Source: Zeimonas sediminis (GTDB lineage: Bacteria; Pseudomonadota; Gammaproteobacteria; Burkholderiales; Burkholderiaceae_E). From it: a DNA stretch of 64,000 nt. A program made the translations under genes and the position numbers. Positions 39,930-49,454 of the stretch are shown here, in pieces. The DNA lies in contig NZ_JAMQYE010000001.1 of assembly GCF_023721795.1 (NCBI RefSeq), forward strand, positions 1,426,001 to 1,490,000, written 5' to 3'. The notes under the pieces were generated by a model. It saw only the letters and a program-made list of their open reading frames with translations. It did not search any database and had not been told where the DNA came from. How positions within the stretch are numbered: position 1 is the first letter of the stretch; each line of letters begins with the position of its first letter.

Positions 39930-40140
39930 GGGCGAGGGCCGGGTGCCTTGCGCGGGCGCGGGGACGCTGTCGCCTTCGGCGAAACGCTTGGTCGCGCGGA
40001 CGTTCAGCCCCGTCGCGGAACGCAACTCGCCCGCCTGCGGCGGGCTCAGACAGCGTTCCGCTCGCGCTTCGCGCGCCGGGTCTTCACTGCGCTCCCGCGC
40101 CAGCGTCCACGCGCCCGCGCAAGGCACCCAGCCCTCGCCC
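39930..40140 (+). repeat. Large inverted-repeat element, copy A
   Basis: The arms 39930-39969 and 40101-40140 match as inverted repeats at 38 of 40 positions. Inside are a small hairpin TCGCC-TTC-GGCGA and a perfect 9-bp stem (GCGGAACGC 40015-40023 with GCGTTCCGC 40053-40061) enclosing another hairpin (GCCCGCC-TGC-GGCGGGC). A further hairpin CGCGC-TTC-GCGCG follows. Copies B and C share the intervening core (for example AACGCTTGGTCGCGCGGACG) but have unrelated arm sequences. It begins 15 bases after the SDR stop and has the same orientation as that gene. Small reading frames across it are palindrome artefacts. Confidence 0.92.
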
Positions 40141-46371: not shown

Positions 46372-47676
46372 ATGACGATGCCCGTTTCCCCTCGCGCGGC
46401 GGCCCCCGCCCCGTCGCGAACCCTGTCACGCGCGCTTGCCCGAGTCCTGGCCGCCGCTTGCGCGGCCGCGTCGGTCGGCGTCGCCGCGCAGCCGGCGATG
46501 CCGCTCGCCGACATGCACCTGCACTACAGCCACGACGCGGTGGCCACCGTGCCGGCCGACGACGTGATCGGGCTGATGCGCCAGGCCGGCCTGCGCCGCG
46601 CGCTGGTGTCGAGCTCCGACGACACCGGCACCCAGAAGCTGCTGGAACTCGCGCCCGACATCGTCGTGCCCAGCCTGCGCCCCTACCGCTCGCGCGGCGA
46701 GATCGGCACCTGGTTCCGCGACCCCACCGTGATCGACTATCTCGAGCAGCGGCTGGCCCGCCATCGCTACGCGGCGATCGGCGAGTTCCACCTGTACGGC
46801 GCCGACGCCGACCTGCCGGTACCGACCGCGATGGTCGCGCTGGCCCGACGCCACGGCCTGATCCTGCACGCCCACTCCGACGCCGACGCGGTGCGGCGGC
46901 TGTTCCGCCAGTGGCCCGAGGCGCGGATCCTCTGGGCCCACGCCGGCTTCGACTCGCCCGAGAACGTCCGCGCGATGCTGCGCGAACATCCGAAGCTGTG
47001 GGCGGACCTCGCCTTCCGCACCGACCACGCTTCGGGCGAGCGCATCGACCCGGCCTGGCGCGAGGCATTCCTCGAGTTCCCCGGGCGGTTCATGGTCGGC
47101 ACCGACACCTTCACGCCGGAGCGGCTCTTCTACATCCCGCAGCACGCCGCATGGACACGGGGCTGGCTCGCGACGCTGCCGGCCGACGTGGCCGAGCGGA
47201 TCGCCTGGCGCAATGCCGAGGGCCTGCTCGCCGATGCCTGGCCTGCCCGCGCGGCGTCGGCCTCGCCTTCCCGCGAGCCCGCGCCGCCTGCCGGCGAGCC
47301 CGCATCGCTTGCCGGCGGTGCGACGCCTCCTTCCTGCGCGCAGGCCGACGACGACGTGCGAAGCTTGCCGGGCAAGGCCTCGCGGCTGGTGTACCGGACC
47401 GAGCCCGCAGCGATCGTGCTGGGCCAACCCTTCCGCCTGCTGGCCCGGCTTTGCCCGAACGGCGCCACGCCGGGCGTCGAGGCTCGCCTGAACGTCGACG
47501 CCACGATGCCCGAGCACCGACACGGCATGAACTACGCGCCCAGGCTCGCGCAGCGCGCGAACGGCCTGGTCGCCGACGGCCTGCTGTTCCACATGGCGGG
47601 CCGCTGGCAGCTGGTGGTGGAGGCCCGGCACGGCGATGTCGTCGAGCGCTTCACCGACGACATCGTGCTTCGCTGA
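46372..47676 (+). CDS. Exported amidohydrolase with a C-terminal YtkA-like domain
   Basis: A 434-residue protein. Residues 1-40 are a signal peptide (ending [10 protein letters not shown]). Residues about 45-290 are an amidohydrolase barrel with the metal motif DMHLH (His49, His51), further His in GEFHLYG and LHAHSD, and Asp245 in VGTDTFTPE. After an Ala/Pro linker (about 290-325), residues about 335-434 resemble YtkA/FixH-type beta-sandwich domains ([15 protein letters not shown]...FTDDIVLR). I know of no characterised protein with this pairing. It is five bases upstream of a di-heme peroxidase gene and probably works with it in the periplasm. Confidence 0.8.
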
Positions 47677-47681
47677 ACCGC

Positions 47682-48908
47682 ATGCGCAAGTGCCGCGCGA
47701 TGCTGCGAGGAATCGCGCCGCTGCTCGTCGCGCTCGCGCCGCTCGTCCCGGTTAACGAGCACGCCGCCGGCGGCATAGCGGCCGGCTTCACCGAGGCCGA
47801 GATCGCCACGATCCTGTCGCACGGCCCCTGGCCGCCCGCGCCGCGCCGCGACCCGACAAACCGGCTGTCGGGCGACCCGGATGCGATCGCGCTCGGTCGC
47901 GAGCTGTTCTTCGACCCGGGCCTGTCGCGCGACGGCCGGATCTCGTGCGCGAGCTGCCACGACCCCGCGAAGGGCTTCACCGACGGCCTGCCGCGCGCGA
48001 TCGGCCTCGAGCGCCACGACCGGAACACCCAGGGCCTGCACGACCTGGCCCTGCAGCGCTGGTTCGGCTGGGACGGCGGCGCCGACAGCCTGTGGTCCGC
48101 GTCGATCCGGCCGATCCTCTCGCCGCTGGAGATGGGGGCGGACGCGGCCACCGTGGCGGCGCGGCTTCGCGAGCGCCTTGGCGCGGCCGAGCGCCTCGCC
48201 GAGCGCCTCGCCGACCGCCAGGCCGGGCGAGAGGCTGCGGCCACGGACGAGGCCCTGCTGGTCGACGCCGGCAAGGCGATCGCCGCCTGGCTGGAAACGC
48301 TGGTCTCCCCGCGCAGCCCGTTCGACGAGTTCCGCGATGCGCTGGCCCGCGGCGACGAGGCGACGATGCGAACCTACCCGGCGCCCGCCCTTCGCGGGCT
48401 GAAGCTCTTCGTCGGCCGCGGCAACTGCTCGGTGTGCCACGCCGGCCCCGCCTTCACCAACGGCGAGTTCCACGACATCGGTCGCCCTTTCCTCGTCGAG
48501 CGCGGCCGCGTCGATCCGGGCCGCCACGCCGGCATCCGGCGCCTGCAGGCCGATCCGTACCGGCTCACCGGTCGCTGGAACGACCAGCCGCCCGCCGAAG
48601 GCCCGGCCGACGCGTCGCTGCGGACCCGCACCGTGGTCCTGCAGCACCGCAACTGGGGCGAGTGGAAGACGCCGGGGCTGCGCGGCCTGCGCGCCACCGC
48701 GCCGTACACGCACGACGGCAGCCTGGCCACGCTGCGCGACGTCGTCGGGCATTATTCGGAGCTGAACCTCGACCGTCTGCACGCCGACGGCGAGGCCTTG
48801 CTGCGGCCGCTGAAGCTGAGCGACGAAGAGATCGACGACCTCGTCGCTTTCCTCGAATCGCTCGATGCGCGGCGCAGCGAGACACCCAGAGGAGACGCAC
48901 GGAAATGA
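47682..48908 (+). CDS. Di-heme cytochrome c peroxidase / MauG-family protein
   Basis: A 408-residue periplasmic protein with two heme c sites, CASCH (89-93) and CSVCH (249-253). Conserved blocks include ALGRELFFDPGLSRDG, LHDLALQRWFGWDGGADSLW, SPLEMG, and the C-terminal TPGLRGLRATAPYTHDGSL. A hydrophobic N-terminus (about 8-24) serves as a signal. The family includes peroxide-reducing enzymes and MauG-like enzymes that oxidise residues of a partner protein. The neighbouring exported amidohydrolase could be such a partner, which is speculative. The stop overlaps the next ATG. Confidence 0.9.
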   Translation: MRKCRAMLRGIAPLLVALAPLVPVNEHAAGGIAAGFTEAEIATILSHGPWPPAPRRDPTNRLSGDPDAIALGRELFFDPGLSRDGRISCASCHDPAKGFTDGLPRAIGLERHDRNTQGLHDLALQRWFGWDGGADSLWSASIRPILSPLEMGADAATVAARLRERLGAAERLAERLADRQAGREAAATDEALLVDAGKAIAAWLETLVSPRSPFDEFRDALARGDEATMRTYPAPALRGLKLFVGRGNCSVCHAGPAFTNGEFHDIGRPFLVERGRVDPGRHAGIRRLQADPYRLTGRWNDQPPAEGPADASLRTRTVVLQHRNWGEWKTPGLRGLRATAPYTHDGSLATLRDVVGHYSELNLDRLHADGEALLRPLKLSDEEIDDLVAFLESLDARRSETPRGDARK

Positions 48909-49231
48909 TCAGCGAACTCGTCAGCTTCGCGCTGCCCGCCGGCATGACCCGCGAAGAGGTCGTCGAGGGCATGCGCGAGGTCGCGCCGAACTGGCGGCGC
49001 AACCCCGACCTGATCCGCAAGACCTTCCTGTACGATCCGGACGCCGGCCAGACCGGCGCGCTGTACCTCTGGCCGAACCGCGAAGCGGCCGAGCGCGCCC
49101 ACGACGAAGCCTGGCGCGCCCGCATCCGCGCGAAGTACGGCAGCGAGCCCACGATCCGTTACTTCGAGACGCCGCTGGTCGTCGACAACGCGCTGGGAGC
49201 GATCATCGACGTGGCGGCGCCGGGCGGCTGA
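48905..49231 (+). CDS. Small YdhR-like (putative monooxygenase-fold) protein
   Basis: A 108-residue protein with a dimeric alpha-beta barrel look: ELVSFALPAGMTREEVVEGM, WRRNPDLIRKTFLYD, GALYLWPNREAAERAHDEAW and YGSEPTIRYFETPLVVDN. The fold resembles the YdhR/antibiotic monooxygenase-like group. No catalytic residues can be named. It is translationally coupled (ATGA) to the di-heme gene, so its role is probably tied to that operon. Inverted-repeat element B starts 13 bases after its stop. Confidence 0.75.
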   Translation: MISELVSFALPAGMTREEVVEGMREVAPNWRRNPDLIRKTFLYDPDAGQTGALYLWPNREAAERAHDEAWRARIRAKYGSEPTIRYFETPLVVDNALGAIIDVAAPGG

Positions 49232-49243
49232 GGTTGCGCGGGC

Positions 49244-49454
49244 GAGCGGAGGACCGTGCCTGCTGCGTGGGGCCGGTGGCGCTGTCCGCTTCGCGGAAAC
49301 GCTTGGTCGCGCGGACGCTCAGCCCCGTCGTGCCCCCAAACTCGCTCCCTCCGGTCGCTCGGACATGGGGGCACTCGCGCTTCGCGCGCCGGGTCTTCGC
49401 TGCGCTCCCGCGCCAGCGCCAAAGGCCCCACGCAGCAGGCACGGCCCTCCGCTC
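49244..49454 (+). repeat. Large inverted-repeat element, copy B
   Basis: The arms 49244-49284 and 49414-49454 match as inverted repeats at 38 of 41 positions. The core is nearly identical to copy A, but the outer arms are unrelated in sequence. The inner hairpin reads TCCGC-TTC-GCGGA, and the inner 9-bp stem is GTGCCCCCA (49330-49338) with TGGGGGCAC (49366-49374), again perfectly paired. Six of the nine base pairs differ from copy A and all six are compensated. Orientation is the same as the upstream gene. Confidence 0.92.

Follow-up and report, generated by a model that had tools for sequence, protein, structure and literature searches.

An exported amidohydrolase, a YtkA-type copper-chaperone-like domain and a MauG-like di-heme enzyme form a conserved operon unit in Zeimonas sediminis and its relatives

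MauG-like di-heme enzymes form a large family, yet only a handful of their protein targets have been identified. In MopE, the copper site is made up of two His residues and a kynurenine made from Trp, and the neighbouring protein SACCP is MauG-like (PMC3423442, PMC3621798). The methanethiol oxidase operon mtoX-SCO1/senC-mauG combines an exported enzyme, a copper chaperone and a MauG-like protein; copper-chaperone-MauG fusions occur in some genomes, and a maturation role has been proposed for SCO1 and MauG (PMC5739008). In Burkholderia, BthA, a MauG-like, Tyr-ligated di-heme enzyme, is encoded beside phosA, a putative exported metallohydrolase, and oxidation of the partner has been proposed (PMC6405878). 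With regard to copper handling, YtkA proteins help in copper-site assembly (PMC13344008), and CrdA, which has no His, binds copper, with a Met-rich motif as the proposed site (PMC9182242). Here, we describe a gene set that many soil and water bacteria carry in a constant order: it encodes an exported hydrolase, a two-heme enzyme and, between them, a small protein of the copper-chaperone type. A literature search for YtkA together with MauG, or for MauG together with an amidohydrolase, returned nothing relevant.

The window analysed is a 64,000-nucleotide stretch of the Z. sediminis genome, and all gene and motif positions given below refer to its forward (+) strand. P0001 (46372-47676, 434 aa) is an exported fusion of an amidohydrolase and a YtkA domain, P0002 (47682-48908, 408 aa) is an exported MauG-like di-heme protein and P0003 (48905-49231, 108 aa) is a YdhR-like protein without a signal peptide, the gene of which overlaps that of P0002. 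The coordinates, reading frames and spacing (+5 bases for P0001/P0002 and -4 for P0002/P0003) reported in a first-pass annotation are exact, and its description of P0001, as a protein with a signal peptide, intact amidohydrolase metal ligands and a YtkA-like domain, agrees with what follows.

The N-terminal stretch of P0001 resembles a signal peptide and is followed by an Amidohydro_2-type TIM barrel (residues ~43-290), a low-confidence linker (294-314) and a C-terminal YtkA/CrdA-like beta-sandwich (~320-434). P0001 itself had no match at E ≤ 1 in Pfam and NCBIfam, and its YtkA domain had none to PF13115 at 0.01; the assignment comes from relatives and structure. In the relatives' alignment, Amidohydro_2 was matched by 58/120 and YtkA by 54/120 sequences, the latter in A1 at E ≤ 0.1 with a best value of 4.1e-8. 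The AlphaFold2 model (pLDDT 89) reproduced barrel, low-confidence linker and sandwich, and in Foldseek the barrel matched the amidohydrolases 3cjp/3irs and the sandwich the copper-binding CrdA structures 9ll2/9ll4. The metal ligands are complete, comprising the HxH motif (H49, H51; 46516..46524), E138, H166/H168, H190 and D245, and vary little or not at all among 92 MauG-associated and 17 unassociated hydrolases. With the barrel, these ligands and the Pfam matches of its relatives, P0001 belongs to the amidohydrolase superfamily of the PF04909 type.

A scan of 84,980 species genomes for P0001 yielded 80 related loci, and hydrolase, YtkA and MauG-like parts were adjacent in 80/80, in constant order and strand, with flanking genes that vary between clades; as the scan patterns include YtkA motifs, this set favours relatives that have both parts. 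Less biased was a search with P0001 in a sample of 300 genomes from the order, in which every hydrolase of at least ~54% identity had an adjoining MauG-like gene, and distant hydrolases (~33-48% identity) had neither YtkA nor MauG in the fetched stretch. The conserved unit of P0001 and P0002 is therefore real and far beyond chance, since all 80 loci keep it while their flanks vary. The co-occurrence search that the first-pass annotation had suggested thus returned the unit throughout the relatives and not in this genome only, and it also corrected the composition of the system, which had been taken to include all three genes. P0003 was discarded as a component because it is absent from 78/80 related loci, being present in L034 and L035 only, the closest relatives of the window; its retention is confined to the genus. 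Its match to YdhR (PF08803; 25.2 bits, E 1.6e-5) lies under the Pfam gathering score of 27.1. Behind another YtkA-MauG pair, L184:7403-7720 encodes a small protein that may be of the GYD type, a situation that recalls the YdhR-like gene behind P0002. Just 3' of P0003, at 49249-49449, lies a GC-rich dispersed intergenic repeat, found also at 39934-40136 of the window; it has 15 matches in the same genome, several of them as inverted pairs ~400 bases apart.

Separate genes encode the hydrolase and YtkA in the majority of relatives; in the clade of the window they are fused (12 loci, duplicates included). A 4-base (ATGA) overlap is present at 55/73 hydrolase-YtkA junctions and at 47/78 YtkA-MauG junctions. 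In two genomes YtkA and MauG form a single open frame with one signal peptide (L047:4091-5572 and L058:2815-4272). Natural fusions are thus found at both junctions, and this supports a physical association of all three parts.

Within the unit, YtkA and MauG form the core, to which the hydrolase is attached as one of two or more exported proteins, since the pair is found without the hydrolase, a Kelch protein substitutes for it in one genus, and the hydrolase also exists alone. When 398 genomes of the phylum were searched with a YtkA-family profile (A3), members appeared in other orders and classes; apart from L182, each one fetched lay immediately upstream of a MauG-like gene, and the hydrolase profile matched nothing there. 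At L172, L173, L180 and L191, all from a single genus of the order that includes Z. sediminis, the place of the hydrolase before YtkA-MauG is taken by an exported Kelch-repeat protein. The YtkA motif at the Kelch-YtkA-MauG loci L172, L173, L179, L180, L181 and L191 reads MPSHGHG or MPAHGHG. Lone members of the hydrolase family in other genomes (L114-L133) are exported and have the same metal ligands, with no adjoining MauG.

The YtkA domain carries a loop (47506..47535) with M379, H382, H384, M386 and Y388, in which the two Met and two His are invariant in 91 sequences, and a further motif, HMAGRW (47590..47607), whose H407, M408 and W412 are invariant in 91/91. From this invariant Met/His set, the loop is predicted to be a copper site and the domain to bind copper. 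The loop motif, MPxHxHG, also follows the presence of a MauG neighbour. Pfam YtkA was searched in 299 genomes and 30 loci were fetched; in this sample the motif occurred in 9/9 YtkA proteins adjoining a MauG-like gene and in 0/21 not adjoining one, many of the latter carrying DMAPDGM or other Met-rich forms instead. The corresponding value (9/30, p = 7e-8) is not a true probability because the genomes are related, and the motif-positive loci are not independent since 7/9 belong to one family (f91). Both kinds of YtkA are encoded in one genome, G417 (L188 and L303). A YtkA relative with neither MauG nor hydrolase nearby (L182, 5517-5945) has lost the motif and is possibly a natural remnant.

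It was also considered that the genes share a transcript through chance, or because a convenient block was transferred, and have no common function. The clade-dependent flanks would be expected from a mobile block as well; however, order and strand are constant in the 80 loci, two different natural fusions exist, the coupling of motif and MauG extends to loci without the hydrolase, and the motif is lost in L182, which has no MauG in its vicinity. This explanation is already contradicted by the observations and we regard it as extremely improbable.

P0002 matches CCP_MauG (PF03150, 1.3e-35) and has two CxxCH heme motifs, CASCH (C89-H93; 47946..47960) and CSVCH (C249-H253; 48426..48440), conserved in 91/92 and 90/92 sequences, respectively. 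Y358 (48753..48755) aligns with the MauG heme-ligand Tyr, so that the two hemes and the Tyr ligand of the six-coordinate heme expected of MauG are all present; the residue is Tyr in 87/87 sequences that have a residue at this position and Met in the aligned peroxidase 3o5c. Where MauG has Trp199, ahead of the second heme motif, the P0002 family has Gly or Ala. W130, found in 76/92 sequences, aligns with the inter-heme Trp of MauG and is flanked by W127 (92/92) and W138 (91/92) in the stretch RWFGWDGGADSLW (48057..48095). The flanking pair, W127 and W138, marks the whole YtkA-type clade; MauG, MbnH, peroxidases and the own-genome paralog lack it.

A tree built from 106 sequences placed P0002 with its relatives in one clade (support 1.0) that joined YtkA-paired di-heme proteins of other classes (0.959) and then MauG with the own-genome paralog (0.881), separate from MbnH and peroxidases. 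The tree is without MtoX-associated MauG, as the 14 SBP56 neighbourhoods fetched provided no MauG-like protein for it. The paralog (L192, G000:C1:2905522) is a second MauG-like di-heme protein and groups with true MauG (0.989). The assignment of P0002 to the two-heme MauG family, made earlier from the sequence, is upheld by this grouping and by the Tyr ligand, and a firm clustering with plain cytochrome c peroxidases, which would have spoken against it, was not seen. Three closer identities were rejected. A plain cytochrome c peroxidase is excluded by the placement with MauG and by Tyr in place of the Met ligand. A MauG ortholog (TIGR03791) is excluded by a score of 168.6 bits against a curated cut-off of 443.85; the neighbours of P0002 and its relatives are hydrolase and YtkA, with no mau operon. 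An MbnH ortholog (TIGR04039) is excluded by 144 bits against a cut-off of 362.85, and the neighbouring P0001, with no NCBIfam match at E ≤ 1, is not recognised as MbnP. A small-protein-then-MbnH arrangement was observed at L226.

The enzyme may modify no protein at all. As a peroxidase or copper oxidase it would then pass electrons to or from copper-loaded YtkA, for instance by oxidising Cu(I) or by clearing peroxide formed at that site, and the small substrate of the hydrolase would have no connection with this. Peroxidase activity is known for BthA, a relative of MauG that also has the Tyr ligand (PMC6405878). Glu150, a residue common to peroxidases and MauG, is conserved in 92/92 sequences, and the clade-specific W127 and W138 could form an electron path. 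On the other hand, Tyr replaces the Met ligand of plain peroxidases, the tree places the clade with MauG, and a strict operon and fusion linkage to one protein partner is, to our knowledge, not typical of general peroxidases. We consider this explanation rather unlikely.

Another possibility is that the hydrolase is the substrate, as the first-pass annotation had proposed when it named the hydrolase as substrate or partner of the di-heme enzyme. YtkA would bring copper, and the enzyme would oxidise Tyr254 and/or Trp261, which lie shortly after the ligand D245, to give a protein-derived or metal cofactor. The more general part of that proposal, in which an exported partner is co-transcribed with a MauG-like enzyme, is well supported because the genes are neighbours in 80/80 loci and P0002 groups with MauG and not with peroxidases. 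For the hydrolase in particular, the MauG-associated sequences form a single clade (1.0), and within the stretch Y254 to W261 (YIPQHAAW; 47131..47154) lie the sole aromatic positions specific to them: Y254 is present in 87/92 and is not among the common residues of the 17 unassociated hydrolases, and W261 is present in 82/92. This stretch is a candidate modification or contact site. Hydrolase and YtkA are fused in the window's clade, and the mtoX-SCO1/senC-mauG operon with its SCO1-MauG fusions (PMC5739008) follows the same logic. Nevertheless, the remaining conserved Trp and Tyr of the hydrolase, nearly all of them, are common to relatives without an adjoining MauG, and those relatives, exported and with the same ligands, stand alone. 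YtkA-MauG pairs occur without a hydrolase in other classes, with a Kelch protein instead in one genus, and YtkA-MauG fusions exist. The hydrolase as substrate is accordingly the weaker part of the proposal, doubtful though deserving of serious consideration.

The copper protein, and not the hydrolase alone, looks like the partner of the heme enzyme. The explanation we prefer, tentatively and with a probability of about 0.4, is that the di-heme enzyme oxidises the copper site of the YtkA domain, or a position next to it, and that copper-YtkA then serves a third exported protein. Three periplasmic activities would cooperate: an enzyme of the amidohydrolase fold, a copper-binding YtkA/CrdA-type domain with two loop His, and a MauG-type di-heme enzyme. 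Activated by H2O2 or oxygen, the di-heme enzyme would oxidise its constant partner YtkA at or beside the site formed by His382/His384 with Met379, Met386, His407 and Met408. The beneficiary of the copper-YtkA domain would then be the hydrolase here and, in another genus, the Kelch propeller; precedents for such an oxidation of YtkA would be MopE-SACCP and MbnP-MbnH. In favour of this explanation are the gene linkage and the fusions, the pairs that lack the hydrolase, the coupling of MPxHxHG to a MauG neighbour, the CrdA-like fold, the MauG grouping with the Tyr ligand and the two-His site of MopE. We infer the metal to be copper, and likewise that a residue is oxidised; the candidates in YtkA are the conserved aromatics Trp412 and Tyr388. 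Thus YtkA is favoured as the constant partner, and the sequence data do not pinpoint the oxidised residue. Several points count against this explanation: the pair alone does not explain the role of the hydrolase, MauG-like genes of the clade occur without an adjoining YtkA at five loci (L174-L178; two of these genomes also carry the full operon elsewhere), and W412 is not specific because several YtkA proteins without MauG also have Trp there. For L058, where YtkA and MauG are naturally fused, the MauG portion of the AlphaFold2 model was of low quality, and the model hence gives no docking geometry for the contact between the two.

In a broader form, the unit may represent a general periplasmic module for copper-site maturation. 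A MauG-type enzyme with a Trp127-Trp130-Trp138 path would convert a Trp or Tyr by the two-His loop of YtkA, so that an unrelated fold would acquire a site like that of MopE; once matured, the chaperone would load or activate exchangeable clients, such as the amidohydrolase or the Kelch propeller, that can be fused to it. In this full extent we judge the proposal unlikely.

The unit offers a compact and widely conserved case for the study of MauG-like enzymes: the partner is named (two-His YtkA), each junction is fused in some genomes, the pairing can be predicted from a motif, and there are Trp residues specific to the clade. The literature searched makes no connection between this chaperone fold and protein-oxidising enzymes; the unit brings copper chaperones and such enzymes together.

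Compared with the described systems, the unit resembles MbnP-MbnH (TIGR04052/TIGR04039), MopE-SACCP and CorA-CorB in that an exported metal-binding protein is encoded beside a MauG-like di-heme enzyme. It differs from them in that the partner is a YtkA/CrdA-fold domain, in a protein without an NCBIfam match, and in that an amidohydrolase is added; P0002 also falls outside MbnH by score and position in the tree. With MauG of methylamine dehydrogenase (TIGR03791), P0002 shares the two CxxCH motifs, the Tyr ligand, the inter-heme Trp equivalent and the tree grouping, whereas its score is far below the cut-off, its neighbours are not mau genes and it has the extra W127 and W138. The relationship to CtaK/YtkA and CrdA lies in the same fold and in copper handling outside the cytoplasm; CrdA is Met-rich without His, in contrast to the MPxHxHG of MauG-paired YtkA. 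BthA-phosA likewise places a Tyr-ligated MauG-like enzyme next to a putative exported hydrolase, but the neighbour of BthA is purple-acid-phosphatase-like and no YtkA domain is mentioned there. The mtoX-SCO1/senC-mauG operon likewise has an exported enzyme, a copper-chaperone protein and a MauG-like protein in one operon, with YtkA here in place of SCO1 and the amidohydrolase in place of the SBP56 protein. The unit is thus a conserved and apparently undescribed variant of a known theme, that of a MauG-like enzyme with an exported copper protein.
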